Assembly (NCBI GenBank): GCA_903911795.1
Contig: CAIWEX010000423.1
Span: 1-37,629 of the forward strand
Direction: 5' to 3'
Source of the DNA: an uncultured Schlesneria sp.
GTDB taxonomy: Bacteria; Planctomycetota; Planctomycetia; Planctomycetales; Planctomycetaceae
DNA length: 37,629 nucleotides
Positions 13,036 to 31,018 of the stretch are shown here, in pieces (the first letter of the stretch is position 1; each line of letters starts with the position of its first letter). The translations under genes were made by a program, and so were the position numbers. Under the pieces are notes generated by a model. The model was given only the letters and a program-made list of their open reading frames with translations. It was not told the DNA's origin and did no database searches.

Positions 13036-13455
13036 ATGTTTTTTCAGATCGATCCCGATAGCGGCGTGGCCATCTATGACCAGATTGCCAGGCAGGTCAA
13101 ATACGCGATCGCCAAAAATACGCTCCGGGCGGGTGAGCTTGTCCCCTCCGTGCGCGAATTGGCCGTCAAACTGGCGGTGAATCCGAATACCGTCGCCCGG
13201 GCCTATCGTGATCTGCAGAACGACAAGGTGCTCGAAGCACTACGCGGTGAAGGGCTGCGAGTTTCTCAGGAAGCCGCTGCACACTGTCGCCTGGCCCGGC
13301 AGACCAATATGGAAGCCCGAGTTCAGCGAGTCGTGATCGAAGCTCTGCAAAGTGGATTTGTCAAAGACGAGTTTATTGGACTCGTTGAATCGGCCTGGCA
13401 GAGCCTGGCACGATCCAAGACCATCGAAAAACAAAGCATTCCGGAGACGCCATGA
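13036..13455 (+). CDS. GntR-family repressor, YtrA type
   Basis: This 139-residue protein has the N-terminal winged-helix GntR domain (residues about 5-75: VAIYDQIARQVKYAIA, GELVPSVRELAVKLAVNPNT, VARAYRDLQNDKVL). It has only a short helical C-terminal part (about 60 residues), the layout of the YtrA subfamily that controls ABC transporter operons. The start has a strong AGGAG. A perfect palindrome overlaps its promoter, and its stop overlaps the ATG of the ABC ATPase gene (ATGA). It very likely represses its own operon. The inducer is unknown; in related systems it is often a cell-wall-active or other membrane stress. Confidence 0.92.
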   Translation: MFFQIDPDSGVAIYDQIARQVKYAIAKNTLRAGELVPSVRELAVKLAVNPNTVARAYRDLQNDKVLEALRGEGLRVSQEAAAHCRLARQTNMEARVQRVVIEALQSGFVKDEFIGLVESAWQSLARSKTIEKQSIPETP

Positions 13456-14417
13456 GTTCGATTTTCGAGATGCACAGGGTCACCAAACACTTCGGCAACC
13501 ACGTCGCCTTACAGGGCCTGACGCTCCGCGGTGACCCCGGCCAGGTGATCGCCCTGCTGGGAGAAAATGGGGCTGGCAAAACAACCGCCATCAAGATCCT
13601 GCTGGGATTGATGCCACTCGACTCAGGTTCGTCGCGCGTGCTTGGAATGGACAGCCAGGAACATGGGGGCGAGATTCGGCGGCGAGTTGGTTACATGCCT
13701 GATCGGCCGGCGCTGTACGAATGGATGACCGTCGAAGAGATCGGCTGGTTTGCCGCGGGGTTTCATCCGATCGGCTACCGCCAGCGATTTAACGACCTGA
13801 TCCGGCAGTTCCGTCTGCCGGCAGATCGGCCGATCAAGTCACTCTCCAAGGGGATGCAGGGAAAGGTTTCATTGTCGCTGGCGATGGCACATGAACCGGA
13901 ACTGCTCGTTCTTGACGAACCAACATCGGGACTCGATCCGATGGTGCGTCGTGAGTTTCTGGAAAGCATGGTCGATGTTGCAGCCCATGGACGGACGGTG
14001 CTGCTGTCGAGTCATCAGATCTCGGAAGTAGAGCGGGTCGCCGATACGATCGCGATTATTCGCGAAGGACGACTGGTGCTGTGTGAACCGCTGGAAACTC
14101 TCAAGGATCGCGTTCATGAAGTGATTGTCTCGATGAACGGAATCGAGACTGCGCCACCGGTCTTTTCCGAGCCAACGCTGCTGATCGGTTCGCAGCGCGA
14201 AGATCGGATCTGGCGATTACTCGTACGGGACCTTGATGACGCGGCGTTGCAGGTGCTCAACGATGATCCGAATCATTGCGATGTCGCGCTGCGTCGACCG
14301 TCGCTGGAAGAAATCTATGTGGCCTGCATGACATCGGAGTTTGCGAGCCTGGCACCGCTGAGCATCAAATTACCAGACGAAGAAGTTTGCCGACCGAAGG
14401 CTTACCACTTCTTTTAG
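13452..14417 (+). CDS. ABC transporter ATP-binding protein
   Basis: This 321-residue protein is a complete ABC ATPase. It has Walker A GENGAGKTT, a Q-loop region around YMPDRPALYEWMTVEE, signature LSKGMQGKVSLSLAMAHEP, Walker B LLVLDEP, D-loop SGLD and H-loop SSHQ. A C-terminal extension of about 100 residues follows. The signature is LSKGMQ rather than LSGGQ, as in many exporters of the YtrB/NatA class. It is translationally coupled to the GntR gene upstream, and the permease gene follows after about 100 bases. It should power export, or removal of a compound from the membrane, by the partner protein. Confidence 0.95.
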   Translation: MSSIFEMHRVTKHFGNHVALQGLTLRGDPGQVIALLGENGAGKTTAIKILLGLMPLDSGSSRVLGMDSQEHGGEIRRRVGYMPDRPALYEWMTVEEIGWFAAGFHPIGYRQRFNDLIRQFRLPADRPIKSLSKGMQGKVSLSLAMAHEPELLVLDEPTSGLDPMVRREFLESMVDVAAHGRTVLLSSHQISEVERVADTIAIIREGRLVLCEPLETLKDRVHEVIVSMNGIETAPPVFSEPTLLIGSQREDRIWRLLVRDLDDAALQVLNDDPNHCDVALRRPSLEEIYVACMTSEFASLAPLSIKLPDEEVCRPKAYHFF

Positions 14418-14425
14418 AAAAACAT

Positions 14426-14444
14426 GACAGGTGCTTCGCCTGTC
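14426..14444 (+). repeat. Small hairpin between ABC ATPase and permease genes
   Basis: GACAGG-TGCTTCG-CCTGTC forms a 6-bp stem with a 7-base loop, 9 bases after the ATPase stop codon. No U-run follows. It could adjust expression of the permease relative to the ATPase, for example as a stability element, but that is inference. Confidence 0.4.
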
Positions 14445-14521
14445 GGTGCGATGAAAGTGATCTCGGGACCGGTTGAAAGCCAGTCCTGCGTCGGGCTTAC
14501 ATGTCGTTGAAGGTGGTTATC

Positions 14522-17392
14522 ATGTTCACCTCTGCCATTGGTCGTTTACTCTGGAAGGAATACCGCGTCCAGCGGGCGTTGTGGTTCCTTCTGCTAGGAC
14601 TGTTGCTGATCCTGCAGATCCTGTTGCGACTGGCATTTTTCAACACGACTCCATCGGCAGCCCCTTATACCACGTCACTTGACGAGCAGTGGGCGACCTG
14701 GGCCATGTGGTTTCTGGCGTTCGTCGTGCAGGTGATTTTTATTGTCGCCTCTGCCGCAATCAGTTTTGCTGGCGAACGTGAAGAGCGGACCTGTGATCTG
14801 CTGGTCCACCATGCCCCTTCGCCGTGGGCGATCCTGCTGGCCAAGGTCGGAACCTGTCTCGCCGGGAGCGCGGCGTTGTACGTGTGCGGCGCGTTCGTGG
14901 CACTACTGCTGGGTCGATCCAATCCCGGCGATGCCTATGTCACATATCAGATCTTTTTCGTAAACCATGCGATTGGAAGTGAAGTTGCCCTGCGCCTGAC
15001 AATCTTACTCGTGCTGCTGGCCTGGTGTCTGTTCGGATCACTCTTGAGCCAGCGGGTAATCACATCCATTCCAACGATGGCCGCTGGCTGGGTCCTGACC
15101 GGCTGGCTTCCGATGATCGCGGTGGTCGGAATGCTGAACCTTGTTCCCGCCGACGTGGGACCACAAGCCGACCGGTCAATCCTGTTGGCGGCGTTTGCGA
15201 TCGCGGGACTGGGGATGATCGGAGTGGATGCATGGCTGGGATACCGTTGGGCGGAAGGAAAATATCTCGACTTCCGGTTCCTCGCTGACTACGGTGACTT
15301 CTGGTCAACCTGGCGGAATGGAATCCTCGATCGAAAGGCGCGAGCCAGTCGTATCCCAGGTGGCATCGAGCCGGACGAAAGTGAGCGTCGCGCGTGGCAG
15401 CGTCTGGTATGGCAGGAACGTCAACGCAACATCATTCCGCGCTGGCTGATGATTACGATTTGCGCCTTGTTACTGAGTGGTAGCCAGATCGACTACGCCA
15501 TCCCAAAGAACTACGGGATACCATCTGTTCCCGATGTTGTCGTCTGCCTGTTGGCACTGGTCATGGGAATTCTGTCGTTCCGCAGCGAAGGGGAAGGGCA
15601 GCCGGTCCGATTCCTGGCCAATCACGGTTCGTCTCCAAGGATGATCTGGAGTGCCAGACAAGCGGTGAGGCTGGTCCGTGCATTTGTCACTCCTGCCGTG
15701 CTTCTCGCCCTGGTCGCGATCCGTGATCGCAGTCTGTGGACATATCCCACCACGCTGATAGAGCGTCATTTCTGGCTGGTTCTGTTGAGTTATGGGAGTG
15801 GTCAACTGGCCGCGATGCTGCTGCACCGAGCGATCCTCGCCGCGATCATAGGGGCAATGGCAACGGCCGTCCTGTTTCTGTGGTTTGAGTTCATGCGCAG
15901 CCTGCACATTCCCCAATGGTGGTCCGCCGGCATTCCAGCGATTGCCCCACTGATCGCCACGCGAATGCATGCCCGGTCGTGGTTGTTGGATGACTTCGCA
16001 TGGACACAGAAGGTCCGCCTCTCAGCCGTGTTGATCGGGCTTCCGTTGTTCACATGTGCGACCGTGGCGGCTTACCGCGTTTACGAAGTCACGCAGATTG
16101 AACCTGCCAGTCAAACAGGGACAGCATTCGATCCCGTTCACAGTTGGCAATTTCTGAATGAGCAGGGCAATCTGGCAACGGACTTAAACACCTCAGGCGA
16201 GCCATCTGTTCGGCCACGCCTGTTCGCCATCGCCGCCCTGCCGACCGAATACAGACCACAGGTTGATTCCGGTTCTGCCAACCTTTCGCTGAGCAGCGAC
16301 GAACGAAAGCTTGCCGATGAAATTGCCCGTGCGTTTGCTGCCAGTGCTGTGATTCATGTCCGTTTCGAACAAGCTCACAATCAGCCATCGAATCGAGACC
16401 AGGCTGACTCGCCGTCTGCCAAGCCAATCTTCATCGGTCGGGTTCAACTGTTCCCTGTCGCAAGTTTCAATCGGCTTAGTGATCGGATGCTCGTGCGTGC
16501 GCGGGATCACCTGAACTTGAACGAACCAGCATCAGCATTCGAGATCTGTCTGGCCCACCTGAAGTCTTGCCAGGCGATGGCGAGAGGTCCGTTCAAACCT
16601 TGTTGGCAAACTGGTGCGGATGAGGAACGCCGCGTACTCGAATTGCTGGTCGAGTGGGCCAATCACAGGAATGTGACATTCGCCGAGATTCACGGCGGGA
16701 TCAAGGAGTTAGAAGTTCGGTTGAACTATTTTCCGTCTCCAGGTTCCGCGATTATCGACGAACATGCACAGGCGAAGCAGAACTCAATTGTCGATGAATA
16801 TGTGACGCAACACGGGGAGATTCCCGGCTGGCAGCGGATCTTTATGCAATTGCCATGGGAATCGATTCGACGCGGTCATTTGTGGGAAATCGAGGCGATG
16901 CTGCATCGAGCCAATCTCAGTTATCTTGTCAGTCGCTTGAGTTACGATCCACGATTCCCTGTCGATGACAGAGTAGTTCCCGTTGGAGGAAATTACCTGC
17001 AGTCGATGGCCGAACTGCAGTCGACAACCTGGGGTGCTGAGGTTGCTCTGACAGGTGATCGGTCCGAGTCCGTTCGCGATCGATTCACTGCGATGAAAGC
17101 TGCGCTGACGCGAATGGGGATCATTGCCTACCGTAAGCAACACGGGAAGATGCCAGCCGATCTGGATGCTCTGTTCGGAATCGTGCGGCAATTGAATTTC
17201 CAGGACCCCTGGTCAAATGGGCGGTTCGACTATCGATCGAATTGCCTTGTGTCGCACGGTAACGGCCCGAGTGGCATCGACGTGCAGTCGAAGGAATCGG
17301 CCGCAGGACAAACGGTTAAGCTCTCACGTTTCGTTTTTCCAATTCCTCCGGCCGCAGTCGACCAATTCCTGCCACAAACGCCAGATCGCTGA
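14522..17392 (+). CDS. Very large ABC-2-type membrane protein with soluble C-terminal half
   Basis: This 956-residue protein has a first membrane block (residues about 20-245) with six or so helices in the ABC-2 style: RLLWKEYRVQRALWFLLLG, a GEREERTCDLLVHHAPSPW coupling-helix-like segment, and ILLAKVGTC. A second block of helices spans about 310-530 and again includes GSSPRMIWSARQAVRL. The last 420 residues are soluble, with no recognised domain. Two ABC-2-like halves in one chain would explain why only one permease gene accompanies one ATPase gene. The start at 14522 is preferred (AAGG upstream); an in-frame ATG lies at 14501. Substrate unknown. Confidence 0.85.
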   Translation: MFTSAIGRLLWKEYRVQRALWFLLLGLLLILQILLRLAFFNTTPSAAPYTTSLDEQWATWAMWFLAFVVQVIFIVASAAISFAGEREERTCDLLVHHAPSPWAILLAKVGTCLAGSAALYVCGAFVALLLGRSNPGDAYVTYQIFFVNHAIGSEVALRLTILLVLLAWCLFGSLLSQRVITSIPTMAAGWVLTGWLPMIAVVGMLNLVPADVGPQADRSILLAAFAIAGLGMIGVDAWLGYRWAEGKYLDFRFLADYGDFWSTWRNGILDRKARASRIPGGIEPDESERRAWQRLVWQERQRNIIPRWLMITICALLLSGSQIDYAIPKNYGIPSVPDVVVCLLALVMGILSFRSEGEGQPVRFLANHGSSPRMIWSARQAVRLVRAFVTPAVLLALVAIRDRSLWTYPTTLIERHFWLVLLSYGSGQLAAMLLHRAILAAIIGAMATAVLFLWFEFMRSLHIPQWWSAGIPAIAPLIATRMHARSWLLDDFAWTQKVRLSAVLIGLPLFTCATVAAYRVYEVTQIEPASQTGTAFDPVHSWQFLNEQGNLATDLNTSGEPSVRPRLFAIAALPTEYRPQVDSGSANLSLSSDERKLADEIARAFAASAVIHVRFEQAHNQPSNRDQADSPSAKPIFIGRVQLFPVASFNRLSDRMLVRARDHLNLNEPASAFEICLAHLKSCQAMARGPFKPCWQTGADEERRVLELLVEWANHRNVTFAEIHGGIKELEVRLNYFPSPGSAIIDEHAQAKQNSIVDEYVTQHGEIPGWQRIFMQLPWESIRRGHLWEIEAMLHRANLSYLVSRLSYDPRFPVDDRVVPVGGNYLQSMAELQSTTWGAEVALTGDRSESVRDRFTAMKAALTRMGIIAYRKQHGKMPADLDALFGIVRQLNFQDPWSNGRFDYRSNCLVSHGNGPSGIDVQSKESAAGQTVKLSRFVFPIPPAAVDQFLPQTPDR

Positions 17393-17749: not shown

Positions 17750-19156
17750 ATGACTGAAGTATTCCAGGCCACCATTGATGAAAGCCCTCGTCAACGTCGC
17801 AGTGACGTTGCCAAGGTGGATCGTGAACTGGTTGCTGGAGTCAAGAAAGTTTCCATGTCTTCCGCGACGCTTGCTGATCAATATCAACAGACTCTGCCGA
17901 AACTGGATCCCAAGCATCCAGAATATATCGTCGGGATCGTCGAACATCTGCTGCGGTTCGCCCAAGCGAGTGGTGCCAGTGACATTCATTTCACTCCTGC
18001 TGATGGGGGGCTGGAAATCGATTGCCGGATTGATGGTGTGCTCGTCCCGATGGCCGTGTATCCGCGTCAATTCGCCCCCAATATCGTGGCCCGGTTAAAA
18101 GTTCTGGCAGAGTTGCTCACGTACAAAACGGACATTCCCCAGGAAGGACGTATCCAGACCTCGAAGCCTGCCGCGGCATCGCCAAATACGGATCGCCAGA
18201 CGCTGGAGGCGGATGTCTGGGAAATGCGTGTCAGCACATTTCCCACATTGTTTGGCGAGAAAGCAGTCGTCCGGATTTTTGCCGGTTCGAGTCGTTTCCA
18301 GTTTCCTGCGGATCTCGGTTTGCCTGACGATCTTGGCGACAGCTTGTCACAGGCTTTGCAGGAGACCGCCGGTGCACTTTTGATTACGGGCCCTGCGGGG
18401 AGTGGCAAGACGACTACGGCCTATGCCTGCCTGCGCGAGATCCAGCGCCAGAATGGACGTGGCAAGAGCCTTGTCACGTTGGAAGACCCGATCGAGACAG
18501 TGCTGCCTGCCGTGGCGCAATCGCAGGTCAAACGAAACGTCGGGTTCGACTATGCGGTTGGGCTGAGATCTTTGATGAGACAGGATCCCGATGTGATTCT
18601 GGTGGGAGAGATTCGTGATCGGGAAACAGCAGAGACCGTCTTTCAGGCCTGCCTCACGGGTCATTTGGTGATCTCGACATTTCATGCGGGTAGTGCGTGC
18701 GAGGCGATCAGCCGCCTCAATGACATGGGTATCGAACCCTATTTGTTGCGAACGGGTTTGCTCAGCGTGCTGAGCCAGCGGCTGATTCGTCAGTTGTGCG
18801 AGTGCGCGGCCTGGTCGGACGATCCTGTCGATCTGCTCGGATTTGACATGTCGCGAGTCCGGATACCAGTCGGTTGCCCGCGATGTGCCGGGACAGGCTA
18901 CTATCGACGATCTCTGGTCGCAGAATTGTTGCGACCCGATCAAAAGGAGATCGGACGCGCGATTCTGTCGCAATTCGGTGCCGACGATCTTCAGCGAACT
19001 GCGATGATCACCGGTTTCTGCACACTCGGACAACGGGCTCGTTCACTTGTCGAATCGGGAATGACCAGTCCCGCGGAAATTCGCCGCGTACTCGGCTTTC
19101 GCCACGACTGCGACATCCAGGCGACGACGATTGCAGATCAAGGGAGAGGACAATGA
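17750..19156 (+). CDS. GspE/PilB-type assembly ATPase (short form)
   Basis: This 468-residue protein has an N2 domain (ASGASDIHFTPADGG), Walker A GPAGSGKTTTAY, Asp box LVTLEDPIE, Walker B DPDVILVGEIRD, His box TGHLVISTFHAG, and a C-terminal CxC / CxxC zinc motif (CECA ... CPRCAGTGYYRR). All catalytic motifs are present. The N-terminal N1/E1 domain that docks GspE to GspL (or PilB to PilM) is missing: only about 35 residues precede the N2 region. That fits the absence of GspL in this cluster. An alternative start at Met35 has GGAG upstream. Its stop overlaps the first GspF-like start (ATGA). It should drive pseudopilus assembly from the cytoplasmic face. Confidence 0.93.
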   Translation: MTEVFQATIDESPRQRRSDVAKVDRELVAGVKKVSMSSATLADQYQQTLPKLDPKHPEYIVGIVEHLLRFAQASGASDIHFTPADGGLEIDCRIDGVLVPMAVYPRQFAPNIVARLKVLAELLTYKTDIPQEGRIQTSKPAAASPNTDRQTLEADVWEMRVSTFPTLFGEKAVVRIFAGSSRFQFPADLGLPDDLGDSLSQALQETAGALLITGPAGSGKTTTAYACLREIQRQNGRGKSLVTLEDPIETVLPAVAQSQVKRNVGFDYAVGLRSLMRQDPDVILVGEIRDRETAETVFQACLTGHLVISTFHAGSACEAISRLNDMGIEPYLLRTGLLSVLSQRLIRQLCECAAWSDDPVDLLGFDMSRVRIPVGCPRCAGTGYYRRSLVAELLRPDQKEIGRAILSQFGADDLQRTAMITGFCTLGQRARSLVESGMTSPAEIRRVLGFRHDCDIQATTIADQGRGQ

Positions 19157-20211
19157 GTTCACGAAGCTCGCCTAAGATGAACGACCTGATCGAAATCAAC
19201 CATGAAATTGCCGCGTTGATCCGTGCGGGGGTTCCACTGGAACTGGGATTACGCAGTATCGCCGGGGGTGCACAAACAAGCTTTGACACGTTGGCAGAGC
19301 GGTTGGCAGATCACCTCTCCAGCGGTCGAAGCCTGGCCGAAGCATTCGCTCAAGAGACGCAATCGATTTCTCCTGTGTATGCCGCGGTTGTGGATGCGGG
19401 GACGCAGGCAGGCCGATTGCCCGAGGCGCTGGATTCTGTCGCGAATTCGGCACGCGTCGTCCAGGAGATGCGACGCCGAGTGGGCTTGGCGATGATCTAT
19501 CCACTGGCCTGCCTGATTGTGGCAATCCCCCTTGCAGCAGGTGTGATTTCCATTCTGATGCCAAGTATCAAATCCACTCTCGAAGACATTCGGCTTCCGG
19601 CCGACTGGGCGATTGAAACACTGTTCACGCTGCACCAGACACTGTCGATCTGGAGCGTACAAATCCCGTTGGGGCTGCTGGGTCTGATTGCCGCCTTGTA
19701 CCTGTTCAGTTTTGGGCCTACTCGCCCACTGTGGTTCGCAATTACGGGACTCAACTGGTTACCCGGATTTGGCCGAGTTCAATACTCATTGCGCCGGACT
19801 CAGTTCCTGGAACTGCTGGCATTGCAGACGAATTTTGGCATTCCGCTGGAACAAGCTTTTCCGCGAGCAGCGAGTGTCACTGAAAATAAGAAGCTTCAAA
19901 TCGATGCTGATCGAATCGCGACAGCGTTGAAATCGGGGCGGTCATTACGTGAGGCATTGGCGGAAGCGACAACGATTCCTGCGTCCTGGAAGTGGGTTCT
20001 CGTGACCAGCCAGGAGGCCGGTTTGCTGCCAGTCGCCATCAAGCAATTGGCGGAGTCGAGCCGTCTTCAAGCGGAACAGCGGACCGCGTGGTTCAACCTC
20101 GCTGTCCCTGCCGTATTGGCCCTGGCGTGCAGTACGACAATCGTAATGGTGTACATGTTAACGGTCCTGCTCCCTGTCATCTCAGTCTGGAAAGGTCTGG
20201 ACCAGCCATGA
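19153..20211 (+). CDS. GspF/PilC-like inner-membrane platform protein, first of three
   Basis: This 352-residue protein has two T2SF domains. The first is INHEIAALIRAGVPLELGLR ... LAEAFAQE ... VVDAGTQAGRLPEALDSVA and the second is LLALQTNFGIPLEQAFPRA ... LREALAEA ... TSQEAGLLPVAIKQLAE. Each is followed by membrane helices (about residues 117-145, 165-190 and 320-345). This is the most canonical of the three copies: both domains carry the GxPLExxl and GxLpxAl signatures. The start overlaps the ATPase stop (ATGA) with GGAGAGGA upstream, and the stop overlaps the next gene. It anchors the ATPase to the pseudopilus in the inner membrane. Confidence 0.92.
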   Translation: MSSRSSPKMNDLIEINHEIAALIRAGVPLELGLRSIAGGAQTSFDTLAERLADHLSSGRSLAEAFAQETQSISPVYAAVVDAGTQAGRLPEALDSVANSARVVQEMRRRVGLAMIYPLACLIVAIPLAAGVISILMPSIKSTLEDIRLPADWAIETLFTLHQTLSIWSVQIPLGLLGLIAALYLFSFGPTRPLWFAITGLNWLPGFGRVQYSLRRTQFLELLALQTNFGIPLEQAFPRAASVTENKKLQIDADRIATALKSGRSLREALAEATTIPASWKWVLVTSQEAGLLPVAIKQLAESSRLQAEQRTAWFNLAVPAVLALACSTTIVMVYMLTVLLPVISVWKGLDQP

Positions 20212-21242
20212 ATGAATCACTGACGACGGAAGAGAGCGAAGCCGTTCTGATCGCTTTGTCGCATCGCATTGCAGCGAACTTGCCATTGAACACCGCGCTG
20301 ACAGCATTAGCCGACGAATCGACTTCGCCACAGGCTCAACGCGTCCTGCGAGAACTGGACCGCCGATTGCAGACGGGCGAATCGCCCAATTCTGTGATTT
20401 GCAGATTGCAAGAGCGACTCCCCGCGATGGTCGGCAAACTTCTGCAGGGGGGAATGGAAATAGGTCGACTCGATCTCGTGATGCAGGTCATGCTCAATCA
20501 GAAACAATGGGATCGAGACTTTCGTCATCGGCTGATGATTGGATTCGCGTATCCGATGGCAATTCTTGTTTTTTTTGGCATTTGGGCATCGATTGTCTTA
20601 TGGGGCCTCGTGCCACATTTCAAAGGAATTTTTGAAAACTTTGGTATCCAGGTGCCGGGGATTACAAAGCTGCTGATCGGTATGTCAGATGTAGTCTGTG
20701 ATTATGGAATTTTGCTGGTCCCGGTATTGCTGGCAGCCGTCATAGGTGGATGGTACTGGCTGTTGTTCGGCAATTTTTCGCGTATGTCCAGTCGATCCGG
20801 ACAGACGATTCCGATCATTGGGCCGATGCTGAGTCTGCGTCAGTTCAGCGAATTTTGCGAAATACTGGCAATTCTTGTGGAGGGACAACTCCCTTTACCC
20901 AAAGCCGTGCAGTTCGCTTCGGCAGGATTGTCCGATCCGACACTGCAAGCGACCTGTCAAAATCTCGTCAGGCTATTAGATCATGGCGAATCGATAGAGT
21001 CTGCGGCAAATCGCCTGGAACTGCCGCACGCGTTTTCACTGGTCTTGCGACAGCCACCCGATGAAATGGCCTGCAATCTGCGAGCACTGTCCAATGTCTA
21101 TACGACAAAAGGAGAGTTCTCGATCCGATCATTGATCATATCGGTCGACGTCATGGTGATGATGGCCGTTTCGGTCATGATCGTGACGACACTGGGGGGA
21201 CTCTTCCTTCCGCTGATCAGGCTCCTCAACGATTTATCCTGA
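20208..21242 (+). CDS. GspF/PilC-like inner-membrane protein, second of three
   Basis: This 344-residue protein has a first T2SF domain (ALSHRIAANLPLNTALTALA ... LLQGGMEIGRLDLVMQVML), then helices (YPMAILVFFGIWASIVLWGLVPHFKGIFENFGIQVPGIT), and a second domain (EILAILVEGQLPLPKAVQF). The second domain is degenerate towards the end: the usual G.L..vL segment is replaced by QPPDEMACNLRALSNVY. The final helix ends FLPLIRLLNDLS, nearly the same as the third copy (MPLIKLLNDLS), so copies 2 and 3 are closer to each other than to copy 1. The start overlaps the previous stop (ATGA). Confidence 0.9.
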   Translation: MNESLTTEESEAVLIALSHRIAANLPLNTALTALADESTSPQAQRVLRELDRRLQTGESPNSVICRLQERLPAMVGKLLQGGMEIGRLDLVMQVMLNQKQWDRDFRHRLMIGFAYPMAILVFFGIWASIVLWGLVPHFKGIFENFGIQVPGITKLLIGMSDVVCDYGILLVPVLLAAVIGGWYWLLFGNFSRMSSRSGQTIPIIGPMLSLRQFSEFCEILAILVEGQLPLPKAVQFASAGLSDPTLQATCQNLVRLLDHGESIESAANRLELPHAFSLVLRQPPDEMACNLRALSNVYTTKGEFSIRSLIISVDVMVMMAVSVMIVTTLGGLFLPLIRLLNDLS

Positions 21243-21263
21243 CTCACTCATAGCGAATCTATC

Positions 21264-22541
21264 ATGGTCGAAGAAACAATGCTGTTCGCACTCCTGGTCG
21301 TCGTCGTTCTGATCGTCTTGACGATTCTCGGGCTGGGGTTGAATCTGCAATCAGAACTGTTACTGAATCCACGTGCTGCCCGAAGTATCAAGGCCCTGAG
21401 CAGGGTCTGCTTCTTCATCGTCGGTTTAATCAGCCTGGGGTTGGGTAACGTCGTGGGATTCGTTCTGGCAATGTTCATCCTGGGTCGCTGGTTTCATTTT
21501 CAAATGACGCAACGATGGGCCAGCCAGAAAGCTGCCGAATTAGAATTGATCTGGTTACTGGCTCTTTCCGCAAAATCCGAGAAATCACTGGTGGATGAAA
21601 TCCAGATGTACTCCGGCGGAGCCACGGGTGCTCGCAAAAGACGATTGCTGGCATTTGCGACGGACCTTCAAAACGGTGTGCCTCTGCAAACGTGCCTGCC
21701 GTATGAATTGTTCTCGCGGCCGACAGCGCTGCAGTTGCAATCAGCCCTGAACAGTGACACGTTCGTTGAATCGCTGACGCGGCTGGCAATCTCGCAGGGA
21801 AAAGCTCTTGCCGACCGCCAACAAGACCTTGGCTATTCGATAGTCGCGTATCCATGCCTACTTTTGGTAGTGCTCTTCGGAATCTGCAGTTTTCAGATGT
21901 ATTACATCATTCCGAAGTTCAAAAAAATCTTCGACGATTTTGGCACGGACCTGCCTGAGATCACGAAGGCGACGATCAGGTTTTCGGATTTCTGCGTCAA
22001 CTACTGGTATTTAATCGTCCCGCCGGTTGTCGCGGTCGCTTTGTTAATCAGGCGTTATCTTTTCAGTGGCCGGCATGACAGCGAGGCGTCAGCGGTAATG
22101 GGACTTCTTGGGCGATTCTTTGTTCGGATACATGCACCCGAGATTCTGCGAGCACTCGCCATGACCGTTTCCTCAGGCCAATCGGTGACTGAGGGAGTCA
22201 AAGTTCTTGCGCAGCAGCCCGACGTCCCTTTGATCCAGTCGACAATCAATAGACTGACGCGGCATGCTCAACAGGGCCATTCCGTGTGGGGCGAACTGCG
22301 GTTTCAAGGCGTTCTGCGAAGCAGCGAGCTGAACCTGATTGAGGCAGCCGGTCGGGCGGGCAATCTCCCCTGGGTTCTGGAGACACTCGCAGAGAATCTG
22401 GAGCGGCGGTGGAAATTCCGATTCAACGTGATCGGTGGCATCCTTCATCCCGTTTTGATCCTACTCGCCAGCCTGCCGATCGGCTTCTTCGCAATTGCGA
22501 TGTTTATGCCGCTGATCAAGCTACTCAACGACCTTTCATAA
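21264..22541 (+). CDS. GspF/PilC-like inner-membrane protein, third of three, with extra N-terminal helices
   Basis: This 425-residue protein has two additional hydrophobic segments at the N-terminus (residues 5-30 LFALLVVVVLIVLTILGLGL; 48-75 CFFIVGLISLGLGNVVGFVL). A reduced first T2SF domain follows, in which the usual motif is replaced by LIWLLALSAKSEKSLVDEIQ. Helices around 195-225 include YIIPKFKKIFDDFGTDLPEIT. The second T2SF domain is well kept (ILRALAMTVSSGQSVTEGVKVLA ... LIEAAGRAGNLPWVLETLAENLE), with a final helix ending PLIKLLNDLS. The gene starts 21 bases after copy 2. It probably combines with copies 1 and 2 in a heteromeric platform; that is inference. Confidence 0.9.
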   Translation: MVEETMLFALLVVVVLIVLTILGLGLNLQSELLLNPRAARSIKALSRVCFFIVGLISLGLGNVVGFVLAMFILGRWFHFQMTQRWASQKAAELELIWLLALSAKSEKSLVDEIQMYSGGATGARKRRLLAFATDLQNGVPLQTCLPYELFSRPTALQLQSALNSDTFVESLTRLAISQGKALADRQQDLGYSIVAYPCLLLVVLFGICSFQMYYIIPKFKKIFDDFGTDLPEITKATIRFSDFCVNYWYLIVPPVVAVALLIRRYLFSGRHDSEASAVMGLLGRFFVRIHAPEILRALAMTVSSGQSVTEGVKVLAQQPDVPLIQSTINRLTRHAQQGHSVWGELRFQGVLRSSELNLIEAAGRAGNLPWVLETLAENLERRWKFRFNVIGGILHPVLILLASLPIGFFAIAMFMPLIKLLNDLS

Positions 22542-22605: not shown

Positions 22606-23064
22606 ATGTGCCGTAATAAACGACCACGATTTCGCTCTCAGTTGACGCATACGCGCCGCAGCGTGAATTCGCGCAGCGGGTTCACATTGACTGAAATGAT
22701 TGCCACGTTCCTGTTGCTGGGGGCCGCGATTGCGCTGATTGCACCGTTTCTAGTCAGCGTCTCCCGACAGCGGTTGGCGATCGAACAACGTCAGTTCGCA
22801 ATCCAATATGCCGGAAGCGTGCTTGAGCGGTACTCGGCACTCCCCTGGGAAAAGCTCTCACCGGGGACACAAACGCTGGCAGACGCTCCTGCAGAACTGC
22901 ACACCTTACTGCCGGATCTCAAACAGTCTCTCGAGATTACAGAGCAGGCAGAGAAACCGATCTCGCGTCAGTTGCGTGTCTCGATCTCGTGGCGTGGGCA
23001 ATCTGACGTGACAGTCAAACCCGTTCAATTGTCCGCATGGATCTTTCAAGCGGAGGCAAAATGA
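22606..23064 (+). CDS. Minor pseudopilin, GspI/PilV-like
   Basis: This 152-residue protein has a positively charged leader of about 25 residues ending in RSG, followed by FTLTEMIATFLLLGAAIALI. This is a class III prepilin signal with cleavage after Gly, Phe at +1 and Glu at +5. The mature domain (RQRLAIEQRQFAIQYAGSVLERY, then a beta-rich part) resembles GspI/PilV. The start is an ATG at 22606 with a weak site. The stop overlaps the next gene (ATGA with a strong GGAGG). It belongs to the minor pseudopilin tip set I-J-K. Confidence 0.85.
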   Translation: MCRNKRPRFRSQLTHTRRSVNSRSGFTLTEMIATFLLLGAAIALIAPFLVSVSRQRLAIEQRQFAIQYAGSVLERYSALPWEKLSPGTQTLADAPAELHTLLPDLKQSLEITEQAEKPISRQLRVSISWRGQSDVTVKPVQLSAWIFQAEAK

Positions 23065-23744
23065 GACCTGCGACACTCCATCGATTCTCTGCACGGGAAG
23101 CCGGTATCCAATCAGGGCGACGGTCATCTTCGCGCCGCGGGTTCAGCCTGATTCACATGGTGACTGTGATCGGCATGATGTCGATCCTGATGACGATGTC
23201 CGGCGTCATCATTCAATCCTTGTTGCGTTCCGACCAATCGGTATCCCGGCAGGCGGCCCTGGAGATGACGTTGCTAGAACTGTCACGTCAATTCCGAGAC
23301 GACGTCCATGCGGCGAACCCGATGGACCTGAAGGAGGCCAAACCGGCGCCGACAGACTCATTGGAATTGTCGGCCCCTCGATCAAGCCGCGTGACCTATC
23401 GAGTTAAGGACGAGACGGTGATTCGTGAGTCATTTAACGGGGATCAGGCGACAGGGCGCGAAGTCTACCGCGTACCGGATTGTGGAGTTCAGTTCCGTAG
23501 CGAAGCGAGCGATGGCGACCAGGCCCGGCTACTCGCATTGGACATCGATCGATCAGGACTGACGATGACACCGCAACAAAAATCAGCCATGGGCAAACGC
23601 AAACTGACGGTTGTGGCCGAACTGGGACGAAACCTGCGAATTGCCAAACGTCAGCCAAGCATCGCGCCAAAAGCGGCTGCCGCTGAAAACCGCGATTCAA
23701 TATCGATGTCCAGCGCGGCTGATGGTGGGGAGACGCAACCATGA
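23061..23744 (+). CDS. Minor pseudopilin, GspJ-like, with His at +5
   Basis: This 227-residue protein has a leader ending SSSRRG, then FSLIHMVTVIGMMSILMTMSG. This is a class III prepilin segment in which the conserved Glu at +5 is His. The mature part (LEMTLLELSRQFRDDVHAAN, then short beta strands around VYRVPDCGVQF and LALDIDRSG) fits GspJ/PilW. The tail is alanine- and serine-rich. The start at 23061 has GGAGG 4 bases upstream and overlaps the previous stop, so the longer frame from 23037 is not used. The stop overlaps the next start. Confidence 0.85.
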   Translation: MRPATLHRFSAREAGIQSGRRSSSRRGFSLIHMVTVIGMMSILMTMSGVIIQSLLRSDQSVSRQAALEMTLLELSRQFRDDVHAANPMDLKEAKPAPTDSLELSAPRSSRVTYRVKDETVIRESFNGDQATGREVYRVPDCGVQFRSEASDGDQARLLALDIDRSGLTMTPQQKSAMGKRKLTVVAELGRNLRIAKRQPSIAPKAAAAENRDSISMSSAADGGETQP

Positions 23745-24190
23745 AAAGAATTCATCTCCAGAACAGTCGATCGAGTGCGAGGTCATTCGGCCGGTCCCAC
23801 CCGCGTCGGGGAACAATCATCATCATTGCCATGGTCATCCTGTTGATTTTCATGGCGATCAGCACGACGCTCATCGGTTCGGTGATTCAGACCCGAACAC
23901 AATTTATTCGGGAAGAGCAGTTCCTGCAGACGTCATTGCTGGTCGACGCAGGCCTTCGCCGGGGTGTTGTACAGCTTCGTAGCGATGGCACCTACCAGGG
24001 GGAAACATGGCAGATTCCCGCAGACCCAGCGGCGGGGCTTGATTCTGCGAAGATCGTCATCGTCGTCGCCAGTGCGGCTGATGCACAAGGGGAGCAGACT
24101 GTCACTGCTACTGCGGAATACCCGGTGGGAACTCCGAATCCAATTCGAATCACGCGTGACCTTTCAATTTCACTCCGGGAGTCGCCTTGA
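23741..24190 (+). CDS. GspK/PilX-like minor pseudopilin
   Basis: This 149-residue protein has an arginine-rich leader ending HPRRG, then TIIIIAMVILLIFMAISTTLI. There is no Glu at +5, as is usual for the GspK tip subunit. The mature domain is short (about 100 residues, TRTQFIREEQFLQTSLLVDAGLRRGVVQL and a small beta part), without the large insertion of classical GspK. It begins in an ATGA overlap with the J-like gene and is the last of the three overlapping pseudopilin genes. Confidence 0.8.
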   Translation: MKRIHLQNSRSSARSFGRSHPRRGTIIIIAMVILLIFMAISTTLIGSVIQTRTQFIREEQFLQTSLLVDAGLRRGVVQLRSDGTYQGETWQIPADPAAGLDSAKIVIVVASAADAQGEQTVTATAEYPVGTPNPIRITRDLSISLRESP

Positions 24191-24401: not shown

Positions 24402-25328
24402 ATGCCTCACAAGCAAGCCTCAACACCCCGTCATCCTCGCCGCGGATTCACTCTGATTGAACTACTGGTCGTGATCGCAATCATCGCGGTCTTAATCGCC
24501 CTGCTGCTCCCCGCTGTGCAGCAGGCACGCGAGGCGGCACGCCGAACGCAGTGTAAAAACAATCTTTCTCAAATTGGTCTGGCCCTGCATAACTACCTGA
24601 TGACACACCAGACATTGCCGCCGGGAACACAAAACCCGACTGGTCCGATCATCTCAGTGGAAGGTGGCGGTCATCACATGGGTTGGATCACACAGATCCT
24701 GCCGTTCCTGGATCAGACTGCAGCCGCCAACAAGATCGACTTCAACCAGTCGGTCTACGCCGAACAAAATCGCCGCGTCCGGAAGCACTTTATTCCAGCG
24801 CTGATGTGTACGTCCGACCCAGCACCAACACGCGGAGAAAAGGAAGCAACCCCGTCAAGTTATTGTGGAATTCACAATGACTACGAAACCCAGATCGACG
24901 TCAAGCAAAATGGAGTTCTGTTCCTGAACAGCTCAGTACGGGCGATGCAGGTACTGGATGGACTCTCGAACACATTGTTTGTCGCCGAGACACGGATTGG
25001 AACGCAGTCGAAATCAGACCTGGGATGGATGTCTGGAACGTCAGCGACGTTACGCAATCCCGTGATCTGGTTGAATCAATCGACACCCGATGCTGCGCCG
25101 AACTATCAGACGCACGCCCTTCCCGAAAGGATCGGAACAGAGATGGCGAATCAACAAAAGGCGACACAACCCCCAGAGTTCGTGGGCGGGTTCGGCAGTT
25201 GGCATACTGGCGGATATCATACAGTGATTGGTGACGGTTCGGTTCGCTTCATCTCCAGTAACATCAATTCTGGCGTCCTTCGCAATATGGCCCACAAATC
25301 GGATGGCGAACTGATTGAAGAGTTTTGA
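24402..25328 (+). CDS. DUF1559 pseudopilin-like protein
   Basis: This 308-residue protein has a canonical class III prepilin leader: RRG then FTLIELLVVIAIIAVLIALLL, with Glu at +5. The planctomycete DUF1559 signature PAVQQAREAARRTQCKNNL follows. The DUF1559 body is intact (LPPGTQN, WITQILPFLDQ, VADLSNTLFV-type DGLSNTLFVAETR), and the C-terminal H..GDGSVRFI box is present. The ATG at 24402 has AAAAGGA upstream. Planctomycetes carry dozens of these proteins; next to this assembly cluster it is a candidate major pseudopilin. The 210 bases separating it from the K-like gene hold no gene. Confidence 0.93.
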   Translation: MPHKQASTPRHPRRGFTLIELLVVIAIIAVLIALLLPAVQQAREAARRTQCKNNLSQIGLALHNYLMTHQTLPPGTQNPTGPIISVEGGGHHMGWITQILPFLDQTAAANKIDFNQSVYAEQNRRVRKHFIPALMCTSDPAPTRGEKEATPSSYCGIHNDYETQIDVKQNGVLFLNSSVRAMQVLDGLSNTLFVAETRIGTQSKSDLGWMSGTSATLRNPVIWLNQSTPDAAPNYQTHALPERIGTEMANQQKATQPPEFVGGFGSWHTGGYHTVIGDGSVRFISSNINSGVLRNMAHKSDGELIEEF

Positions 25329-27008: not shown

Positions 27009-28100
27009 ATGCTCATACGTTCACTGATCGCTTTGTTGGCAGTATTTTTCCTGGCGATTCCAGCAGTCACTGACGCTCAACTGAGAACGGACAAGCGTCT
27101 TCAGGAGAAGGTGTCGATCGACGTCAAGGATAAGCCGACGGAGGAATTCCTGCGTGAACTGGGTGAGAAATACAAGATCCCAGTCGATCTTGATCCGTCG
27201 ATCCCGGATGTTGCCCCCGGTCCAATCACCTTGACGGCGGATGGCATCACCCTTGGTTCTGTGATCCATCTGGCATGCGAATCACAGTTTCTCGTCGCAA
27301 CGATGGAGAAGGGGAGACTGGCGGTAATGTCACGCGAAAAGGACGAATTAAATCTAGTCGTCCGTGATTATCCGCTGGCACAACTTGGCCCCGGTATTGA
27401 CCCGCAGACCTTGTCCGTCGGCCTGACCGAAATGACCTCAGGGTTCTGGAAGGATGTGGATGGTGAAGGAGGAGAAATTGCCGCAATCAATCCGCAGACG
27501 TTTCGAATTCGTCAGACGCGTTTTGTTCACGCCGAATTGCAAAGTGTCTTTGATCTGATCACTGCAGCAAACGGACGTCCTCGCCCGCCGACTGTTCAGG
27601 AACGCAGTGAACAGGCACTCCTCAAGAAACTCAACACTCCTTCACAGTTTTCCGCAGAAGAAACCCCTTTGCCCGAGTTACTCGAACAATTACTTCGGAA
27701 GAATGGTATTCCCTATTGGATCGATGCGACGGGTCTTTCAGATGAGGGGCTAAATCTGTTGATAATGAACTCCAAGTTTGCGGCGTCGAAGAAGCTGTCA
27801 ACGGCGATGCGATTGGACGCTATCGCAACGCAGCATCAACTCTCCTGGACTGTTGCGGATGAACTGGTTCAGATCACTTCAGCTGCCAAGGCGGACGAAA
27901 CGATGATCAACCGGTTGTATGATGTCCGACGAGCGAATGTCCCTGCGGCCGCACTCGCAGAGCAAATCGTTCGGAATAAAGAACTTGGAAAATGGATGAT
28001 CGTTGACGAGGAAGGGGGAAGCATCCTGCCGCTGGGGACAGGACTGCTGATTCGCCAGAACGCCAAAGCACATGCAAAGATTGCCAAGCTGCTCAATTGA
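27009..28100 (+). CDS. Exported protein with STN/secretin-N-like modules
   Basis: This 363-residue protein has a signal peptide MLIRSLIALLAVFFLAIPAVTDA. It then has two or three modules with the betaalpha pattern of STN / secretin N-domains. They are residues about 35-110 (KVSIDVKDKPTEEFLREL ... ITLTADGITLGSVIHLACESQFL), about 215-290 (PLPELLEQLLRKNGIPYWID ... LSTAMRLDAIATQHQLSWTV) and about 300-360 (DVRRANVPAAALAEQIV ... LLIRQNAKAHAKIAKLLN). It lacks a secretin barrel, so it would be a soluble periplasmic protein. Its place after the pseudopilus genes suggests a periplasmic connector role, but such proteins are also scattered elsewhere in planctomycetes. Confidence 0.75.
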   Translation: MLIRSLIALLAVFFLAIPAVTDAQLRTDKRLQEKVSIDVKDKPTEEFLRELGEKYKIPVDLDPSIPDVAPGPITLTADGITLGSVIHLACESQFLVATMEKGRLAVMSREKDELNLVVRDYPLAQLGPGIDPQTLSVGLTEMTSGFWKDVDGEGGEIAAINPQTFRIRQTRFVHAELQSVFDLITAANGRPRPPTVQERSEQALLKKLNTPSQFSAEETPLPELLEQLLRKNGIPYWIDATGLSDEGLNLLIMNSKFAASKKLSTAMRLDAIATQHQLSWTVADELVQITSAAKADETMINRLYDVRRANVPAAALAEQIVRNKELGKWMIVDEEGGSILPLGTGLLIRQNAKAHAKIAKLLN

Positions 28101-29935: not shown

Positions 29936-30244
29936 TCATTCCGAGTATTCGCCACGGCCTTCGAAACCCTGGACGTCACAGGTGTTGTCGCAGTGATCGA
30001 TGTTGTCGCGGAATTCGGTGCCGCTGGAGTAGCCTTGGCAACCGAGGATTCCCTTGACGCAGTAGGTCTGATTCATGGATCCAATCGCGGAGCCGACGTC
30101 TTCCAGTTCGTTGTTGACGTTCAGAGCGACTTCCGACAGGCCAACAATCATTCCGAGGACAGCGATCGTTGAAACCAGGACCAATTCAGCAGAGATGATG
30201 AAACCAGCTTCGTCGTTGATCAGGGTGGCGAAAACGTTTGACAT
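29936..30244 (-). CDS. Flp-pilin-like small membrane protein (planctomycete type)
   Basis: This 102-residue protein begins MSNVFATLINDEAGFIISAELVLVSTIAVLGMIVGLSEV. A short leader is followed by one hydrophobic helix containing an Ala-Glu-Leu, as in Flp/TadE-like pilins. NNELEDVGSAIGSMNQTY follows, with a C-terminal part carrying five cysteines. The start at 30244 is set by AAAGGA 8 bases upstream; the longer frame from 30364 is unlikely. Similar short proteins recur in planctomycete genomes, usually as orphan genes, as here. No Tad genes are nearby. A pilin-like role is inferred from the N-terminus only. Confidence 0.75.
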   Translation of the reverse strand: MSNVFATLINDEAGFIISAELVLVSTIAVLGMIVGLSEVALNVNNELEDVGSAIGSMNQTYCVKGILGCQGYSSGTEFRDNIDHCDNTCDVQGFEGRGEYSE

Positions 30245-31018
30245 GGTGTTGGTCCTTTCTGGGACTTGATTCAGGATTCGTTCGAGCGGCCCTGCTGACC
30301 GTCTCGTGTTGTTTGTTTGAGTGATTCGCAGGATGAACATGCTGTAAAGCAGATTGAATGCCAATTCGATTTTTTGTTCATTTCTCGTGACGCGAGCCAG
30401 CGATTTTATTCTCTAAAATATTATCTGGAAACATGTTGCGAATAATTAGCATTGGCGACGCGAGAATTGGCAGGTGGCTTCGACGAATGATGCCAAGACG
30501 CCACATTCGGCTGATTCAAAGCATAGGTTCGACGCTGAAAACTGTTGTCCAGAAACAGGTTCCGCAGCGCACCATCGGCCTGCACCTGGATGATGCGAAG
30601 ACTCCACAGAATTCAGAGGGTCGACCGCTGATGAACAATGATGAACGCTGATGGGGAATGTGTTCTGTTTGGGCTGAATGCCCAAACTCACATCACACAG
30701 TTTTGAGTCACATCAACTATTCATCTCCGAAATAGACCTGCAGCAGACAGTATCCCGCGAGCCAACGAAGCCGGTTGCAGATTGCATGAAGAGCATCTTT
30801 CCATCTCCTGATGATCTTGATTTATCAGCGTTCATTAGCGTTTATCAGCGGTTCCCTCGCATTTCATCCCGGAATTGATGGCGATTCCAAAACGATCCGC
30901 CGTTACGTAGATTGAAATCGATTTTCTCGATCACCTATTCGTCGGGTGGAAAACCGGTGGAGTGTCGTCGAACAGGTCAGCAACAAGAGTTGGATTCGTG
31001 TTTCAGGAGATTTCGCTG
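30245..31018. other. 770-base stretch without a convincing gene
   Basis: Short frames occur, but none has a ribosome site or protein-like composition. At 30628-30655 there is ATGAACAATGATGAACGCTG, and at 30823-30851 the related inverse TTATCAGCGTTCATTAGCG then TTTATCAGCGG. These are pieces of a common degenerate intergenic repeat. The left end should contain the promoter of the Flp-like gene. Confidence 0.5.

Follow-up and report, generated by a model that had tools for sequence, protein, structure and literature searches.

Introduction

Why would an operon with a single assembly ATPase and a single set of tip pilins carry three genes for the inner-membrane platform? This question is raised by a 37,629-nucleotide stretch of DNA from an uncultured Schlesneria sp. 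(Planctomycetota; assembly GCA_903911795.1, contig CAIWEX010000423.1, positions 1 to 37,629 of the forward strand), hereafter the window. Three consecutive platform-type genes at 19153-22541, named here F1, F2, and F3, follow a short ATPase gene of the GspE/PilB family and are themselves followed by three minor pseudopilin genes (pilA, pilB, and pilC) and a DUF1559 pilin gene. Of the core parts of type II secretion systems (T2SS) and type IV pili, the platform protein is the one least understood: its oligomeric state, dimer or trimer, and its possible conduction of ions are both debated. The current model is a homotrimeric platform on a hexameric ATPase, proposed from cysteine cross-links for PulF (PMC10790770) and from prediction for ComGB (PMC10191384). 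Three copies of a two-domain protein would thus offer six cytoplasmic domains that dock on the six ATPase subunits.

The analysis reported here leads us to propose, with moderate confidence, that this cluster codes for a dedicated machine of the class Planctomycetia that assembles type IV filaments and resembles a T2SS or a pilus, and whose platform would be heteromeric, most simply with F1, F2, and F3 in a 1:1:1 ratio. A heteromeric platform is favoured because each operon contains one ATPase and one tip-pilin set alongside three full two-domain platform paralogues that appear to be interdependent.

Three Full-Size Platform Genes

A preliminary description of this DNA, made from the letters alone, had reported three GspF/PilC-like genes in a row. 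Each of the three proteins indeed contained two T2SSF (PF00482) stretches when searched with the hidden Markov model, with 97.7, 74.9, and 58.0 bits for F1, F2, and F3, respectively, all above the curated Pfam cut-off of 25.2 bits. The gene junctions were also as described, with ATGA overlaps between the ATPase gene and F1 (19153-19156) and between F1 and F2 (20208-20211), and 21 bases between the F2 stop and the F3 start. NCBIfam models of GspF, PilC, and ComGB covered most of the length of the three proteins with scores below the equivalog cut-offs, and none of them reached equivalog GspF or PilC status (best score 119 bits versus 424 for GspF and 700 for PilC).

AlphaFold2 models of F2 and F3, built from orthologue alignments, were confident (predicted local distance difference test (pLDDT) 91.2 and predicted template modelling score (pTM) 0.83 for F2; pLDDT 88.2 and pTM 0.82 for F3), and each displayed two complete six-helix bundles and three core transmembrane (TM) helices. 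Foldseek matched the F2 model to PilC, EpsF, and OutF and the F3 model to PilC and EpsF, these matches being PilC (3jc8) and the cytoplasmic domains of EpsF, OutF, and PilC. All three paralogues retained G124 and G327, which are conserved glycines, as well as P405 and the pore tyrosine. The observation of three platform genes thus stands, because of the T2SSF matches, the NCBIfam similarity, the confident two-bundle models, and the Foldseek matches.

Two extra N-terminal helices had been noticed in the third copy, and they are real: hydrophobic helices were modelled at residues 2-32 and 36-59 of F3, and at least one N-terminal hydrophobic segment of that kind was found in 111 of 127 F3 orthologues. 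The second domain of F2 had been described as degenerate; its score is weak, yet its fold is intact, with both bundles complete in the model. Nor is the first copy the canonical one, because the pore glutamate, the C-terminal tail, and the LPxxT motif of the periplasmic side have all been lost from the F1 family; the paralogue closest to canonical platform proteins is F2.

A Conserved Cluster of the Planctomycetia

The gene order ATPase-F1-F2-F3-pilA-pilB-pilC-DUF1559 recurred in loci across the class, and a survey of synteny in planctomycete genomes found the cluster conserved, with F1, F2, and F3 adjacent, in that order, and on the same strand in 96 of the 100 loci containing all three. In an even sampling of the class (398 genomes), orthologues of F1 were present in 206 genomes, in 177 of the 340 genomes of good quality, and in 91 of 186 genera; many of the genomes compared here are metagenome-assembled genomes (MAGs). 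All the F1 orthologues (about 220 bits or more) found in a phylum-wide sample of 392 genomes belonged to the class of the window; none was detected outside it in this sample, where the best other matches scored about 210 bits, and those examined were canonical GspF/PilC proteins or a two-gene form from family f81, described below. A named scan, for which an alignment of the N2 domain of the ATPase served as the query, returned 80 loci, nearly all titled planctomycetes and two titled "bacterium" only; some of the MAG names, such as Kuenenia, look mis-assigned. The ATPase, F1, F2, and F3 were contiguous in 39 of these loci, many of the 80 being short, including those of Gimesia sp. SAT87, Tautonia sociabilis, and Paludisphaera soli. 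The triplet is therefore old and widespread, and not a recent decay product confined to one genome. The short ATPase, the three tip-type (GspI/J/K-like) pseudopilins, and the DUF1559 pilin, which had prompted the suggestion of a distinct planctomycete system, also recur in the class, and that suggestion is supported.

No further conserved cluster gene, such as a secretin or GspC/L/M, was found among the compared loci (the search did not extend elsewhere in the genomes), and recurrent extra neighbour matches were mostly antisense or other frames of the cluster genes. The conserved cluster contains one ATPase and no PilT-like one, and PilMNOP were not among its conserved genes, which distinguishes it from type IVa pilus clusters. 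A canonical PilB/PilT/PilC set was located away from the cluster, for example at loci L189 and L308.

Two particular cases were observed in this survey. Most sampled genomes of genus g57 (7-8 Mb) carry two diverged copies of the whole cluster (L092/L093, L094/L095, and L109/L110). At locus L116 (genome G528), F3 was not detected as a separate open reading frame, and the frame matching F2 had an unusually high score of 468 bits; a fusion or a frameshift is possible.

Ancestry and Co-Retention of F1, F2, and F3

In a tree of 98 proteins, obtained after removal of long-branch rows, F1, F2, and F3 formed single clades (support in the Shimodaira-Hasegawa-like approximate likelihood ratio test of 99, 97, and 98, respectively), apart from the canonical GspF/PilC proteins of planctomycete genomes (95). 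The first tree, with 116 rows, agreed with it except for one long F2 row and the row can_L286, which had been labelled canonical and proved to be the F12 protein of family f81. Each of the three clades spans several families. The ratio of nonsynonymous to synonymous substitution rates (dN/dS) among close orthologues was 0.05-0.3 for F1, F2, and F3, all of which are under purifying selection.

Two-gene forms were found in two families. In family f81, from another class, the cluster (L291 of genome G231 and L292 of genome G446) encodes the ATPase, a protein named F12, F3, and pilins, and it is a candidate for an intermediate state. In family f3, from the same class as the window, F1 and F3 are retained and F2 is absent. 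The f3 copy carries the Pro-for-Glu change and the indel in TM segment 3 (TMS3) of F1 and groups with F1 (97), and because of these features a loss of F2, rather than a state that preceded the duplication, is probably the explanation. The alternative, with F1 and F2 together as a clade, was not rejected by the approximately unbiased test (p 0.48). The simplest history consistent with these trees would be one platform gene, then two, then three.

The operon is broken up in most genomes of the window's genus. In genome G003, assembled as one contig, F2-F3 lies at 1.21 Mb, the ATPase gene at 2.62 Mb, and F1 at 5.47 Mb. All three platform genes were nevertheless present in 13 of the 14 genomes of the genus, including that of the window, and the remaining one, G010, has none of them, with matches of canonical level only. 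The ATPase was found in 12 of the 13 genomes searched and was missing only in G010. This all-or-none retention of unlinked genes is the strongest, if indirect, evidence for the interdependence of F1, F2, and F3, because linkage cannot explain it.

Residues Lost and Kept by Each Paralogue

In the model of the PulF homotrimer, the proposed pore is made up of the TMS1 Tyr-Pro and TMS3 Glu-Pro pairs (PMC10790770). The canonical reference consisted of 19 planctomycete GspF/PilC proteins, taken mainly from the genomes studied here or from relatives; among them, Tyr-Pro was conserved in 19/19 and Glu-Pro in 18/19. F1 retained Tyr-Pro (105/110) and never had the pore glutamate (0/110), a proline occupying its position in 106/110 sequences. 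In F2, Tyr-Pro was found in 100 of 118 sequences and the glutamate in 45 (38%), the others having mostly Q, P, A, S, T, or G. F3 kept Tyr-Pro in only 27/130, the proline being lost in most, and the glutamate in 8/130, with F, R, K, Q, or other residues replacing it in the rest. The TMS1 tyrosine itself was retained in about 92-95% of each paralogue. In the window, these positions are Y116-P117 and P319 in F1, Y115-P116 and D314-V315 in F2, and Y196-P197 and H395-P396 in F3.

The loop between TMS1 and TMS2, which the usual topology places on the periplasmic side, retains the LPxxT motif in F2 and F3, whereas F1 has lost it (L 5%, T 5%). Other residues are conserved specifically in one paralogue (canonical PilC numbering): N81, E83 (96%), W233, and P384 (96%) in F1, E104 (85%) in F2, and W359 (88%) in F3. 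Each paralogue has thus lost a different part of the canonical signature, a pattern of complementary degeneration with new constraint. Together with the three clades and the co-retention of unlinked genes, this complementary loss and the paralogue-specific invariants lend strong support to the paralogous specialisation put forward in the preliminary description.

That description had also pointed to a nearly identical C-terminal end in the second and third copies. This end is real (PLIRLLNDLS in F2; PLIKLLNDLS in F3), but it is not private to the two, since the canonical PilC of the same genome (L271, contig C466 of G000, in another operon) ends FMPLIKLLNDLS, encoded by different codons (compared with window positions 21204-21239 and 22503-22538). 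Many F2 and F3 proteins retain the tail, and F1 has none. In the Isosphaeraceae (family f2), SG is often the ending of all three tails, PilC, F2, and F3 (for example KLSG or RLSG), and the F2/F3 tail tends to follow the PilC tail of the taxon. One explanation may be a common periplasmic partner contacted by the tails of PilC, F2, and F3. A recent gene conversion of the F2 and F3 C-termini was rejected, as their codons differ.

A Proposed Heteromeric Platform and Its Alternatives

In the proposed machine, the three platform positions would be filled by F1, F2, and F3 instead of three copies of one protein, and this asymmetric platform would be driven by the ATP-powered steps of the ATPase hexamer. 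F2 and F3 may engage pilins through the periplasm-facing signatures that they retain (LPxxT in both, the C-terminal tail in many), and F1, which lacks these signatures and has gained conserved cytoplasmic residues of its own, may mainly couple to the ATPase. The pore-glutamate ring would be replaced by at most about one acidic residue. What the analysis establishes is the gene content, fold, family membership, ancient separation, selection, synteny, and residue changes; the presence of F1, F2, and F3 in one complex, their stoichiometry, their division of labour, and a DUF1559 filament as the product are inferred. For a narrower version, in which an obligate F1:F2:F3 heterotrimer with an asymmetric pore and a dismantled glutamate ring sits on a symmetric ATPase hexamer and arose stepwise from a one-gene through a two-gene (f81-like) to a three-gene state, we consider the case evenly balanced. 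A ring assembled from specialised paralogues has a parallel in an unrelated machine, the fungal vacuolar-type ATPase, whose c-ring passed from one subunit to Vma3, Vma11, and Vma16 by duplication and complementary loss, and for which hetero-assembly has been demonstrated.

Several points weigh against this proposal. Two-gene versions exist in families f3 and f81, and three distinct subunits are therefore not obligatory. The argument for contact between F1, F2, and F3 is an indirect one, and the platform stoichiometry of the known systems is itself still debated between dimer and trimer. An association of acidic pore residues in F2 with basic ones in F3 was significant in the raw data (Fisher p 0.005) and disappeared among phylogenetically independent pairs (median p 0.69); an F2-F3 pore salt bridge, considered on the basis of this covariation, was thus dropped.

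Two other arrangements would also make use of all three proteins. F1, F2, and F3 could each form a homotrimer and alternate on the one ATPase, for instance to serve different DUF1559 pilins or to separate extension from retraction. The many DUF1559 proteins (76 first-look candidates in the genome of the window) might need different platforms, and the conserved cluster has no PilT-like ATPase, so that any second mode would need a source outside it. However, DUF1559 proteins were found in 398/398 class genomes, including those without the three-platform system, so that they do not track this system and their correlation with the cluster is uninformative. In addition, F1 or F3 by itself is missing residues found in almost every canonical homomeric platform compared, and the all-or-none retention of unlinked genes and the complementary decay of canonical residues fit interdependence better, making alternating homotrimers fairly unlikely. 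We also judge it unlikely that F2 is the true platform oligomer, with F1 and F3 as cofactors that handle the ATPase or the pilins at its edge. F2 alone often keeps the acidic pore residue and has most of the canonical motifs, F3 has additional TM helices, and F1 has lost its periplasmic motifs, all of which would suit such roles. Yet all three keep both bundles or T2SSF domains as well as G124, G327, P405, and the pore tyrosine, and family f3 has F1 and F3 without F2, which is odd if F2 is essential.

A further view, that F1, F2, and F3 are decaying tandem duplicates or products of recent gene conversion with no functional specialisation, could draw on the weak Pfam scores of F3 and of the second domain of F2, and on the near identity of the F2 and F3 C-termini. 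It is already contradicted by the present results and is highly improbable: the clades are old and extend across several families, dN/dS is low, the folds are confident and complete, and the C-termini differ in codons and match the PilC of the genome too. A heteromeric platform of three specialised subunits is thus the reading that we retain.

Comparison with Known Systems

The platform proteins resemble GspF/PulF of Klebsiella in having a pair of T2SSF six-helix bundles, three TM helices, conserved glycines, and the Tyr-Pro of TMS1, although its proline is mostly lost in F3. PulF, however, is encoded by one gene and modelled as a homotrimer, whereas the Planctomycetia cluster has three diverged genes that have mostly lost the pore glutamate; the N-domain of GspF/PulF is absent in F1 and F2 and has TM helices in its place in F3. 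The likeness to PilC, including that of the same genome, lies in the fold and in the C-terminal tail PLIKLLNDLS kept by F2 and F3, but PilC has its own ATPases, belongs to another cluster, and has both E-P and Y-P intact. With T2SS, the cluster shares a GspE-type ATPase, GspF-like proteins, and a clustered GspI/J/K-like tip set, these tip assignments relying on weak matches and position; it differs in having three GspF-like genes and neither GspD nor GspC/L/M as a conserved neighbour in the compared loci. The Com pilus (ComGA/ComGB) is similar in its minimal ATPase, its platform without an N-domain, its minor pilins, and the absence of a secretin from the cluster, but it has a single ComGB, occurs in monoderm cells, and lacks a DUF1559 pilin.

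In the literature searched, the platform is encoded by one gene except in Tad/Epd systems, which have two (PMC6668835, PMC10191384). Tad/Epd operons thus also combine more than one platform gene with one ATPase, but TadB and TadC arose by gene fission, each being half-size with a single T2SSF domain (PMC6668835), whereas F1, F2, and F3 are three full two-domain proteins produced by duplication. The statement in the preliminary description that known systems have one platform protein each is thus not universal, because Tad/Epd already carry two; what holds is that three full-size platform genes are new, the components themselves being of known kinds. Nothing like a three-gene platform was found in the literature searched, mostly non-subscription papers, nor was any paper there that dealt with planctomycetes, GspF, and pili together, and the text of a filament-superfamily study does not mention planctomycetes. 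A transposon study of P. limnophila reported an operon, Plim_0410-0401, with "Type II secretion protein" genes (PMC10632474). It is very probably not the same cluster, because its position, expected at 500-520 kb by locus-tag interpolation in genome G388 (likely P. limnophila), falls in an ordinary PilB/PilT/PilC region (L189), and the three-platform cluster of this genome is at 4.38 Mb (L099).

Three distinguishable platform genes make stoichiometry and subunit order testable by simple genetics and tagging, and the loss of the pore glutamate from most subunits is a test of whether assembly is driven, as claimed, by a conserved Tyr/Glu ion channel. The cluster is thus a natural test of how a membrane hub drives filament assembly. 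It is also an example of a molecular machine gaining complexity, from one to two to three platform genes, in a phylum about whose surface structures little is known.

Components of the Cluster in the Window and Neighbouring Genes

The features of the cluster are listed in Table 1. The conserved part of the ATPase starts at about residue 36 of the sequence as called (orthologue median 405 aa); the protein has N2 and C-terminal domains without an N1 domain, and its Walker A motif (GPAGSGKTTT) and Zn-type cysteines are present. Glu5 was found in 97 of 113 parsed pilA orthologues and in 81 of 103 parsed pilB orthologues, the pilB copy of the window having a histidine at position 5 of the prepilin motif instead; glutamate was not among the listed position-5 residues of 108 parsed pilC orthologues. 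By their position and this Glu5 pattern, with weak family matches, the three look like a GspI/J/K-type tip set. The DUF1559 protein, which also matched N_methyl (37.7 bits) and TIGR04294 and has a syntenic DUF1559 counterpart in most loci, is likely the main pilin.

Table 1. Features of the three-platform cluster in the window. aa: amino acids; TM: transmembrane.
Feature	Position	Strand	Evidence
Short assembly ATPase, GspE/PilB family, 468 aa as called	17750..19156	+	T2SSE PF00437 293.8 bits
F1, first platform paralogue, 352 aa, two T2SSF domains, 3 TM	19153..20211	+	T2SSF 97.7 bits, F1 clade, pore columns
F2, second platform paralogue, 344 aa, nearest to canonical	20208..21242	+	T2SSF 74.9 bits, AlphaFold2, Foldseek, F2 clade
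F3, third platform paralogue, 425 aa, two extra N-terminal TM helices	21264..22541	+	T2SSF 58.0 bits, AlphaFold2, Foldseek, F3 clade
pilA, GspI/PilV-like minor pseudopilin (GFTLTEM, Glu5 present)	22606..23064	+	Weak N_methyl, XpsI matches
pilB, GspJ-like minor pseudopilin (GFSLIHM)	23037..23744	+	Weak GspJ / Verru_Chthon D matches
pilC, GspK/ComGG-like minor pseudopilin without Glu5	23741..24190	+	Weak ComGG, GspK matches
DUF1559 pilin, prepilin signal GFTLIEL, H-X9-DG C-terminus, presumed main filament subunit	24402..25328	+	PF07596 196.9 bits

Directly upstream of the cluster (13036-17392, plus strand), the window encodes a GntR regulator, an ATP-binding cassette (ABC) ATPase, and an ABC-2-like permease of 963 aa that carries a long additional C-terminal part; these genes were not among the conserved cluster neighbours found. 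Farther downstream and outside the conserved cluster, a 363-aa secreted-looking protein (27009-28100, plus strand) had a sub-threshold match to STN, the secretin short domain. Finally, a small protein encoded on the minus strand (29936-30364), with no Pfam match, has an N-terminal stretch, AGFIISAELVLVSTIAVLGMIVG, that resembles Flp/Tad-type pilins.

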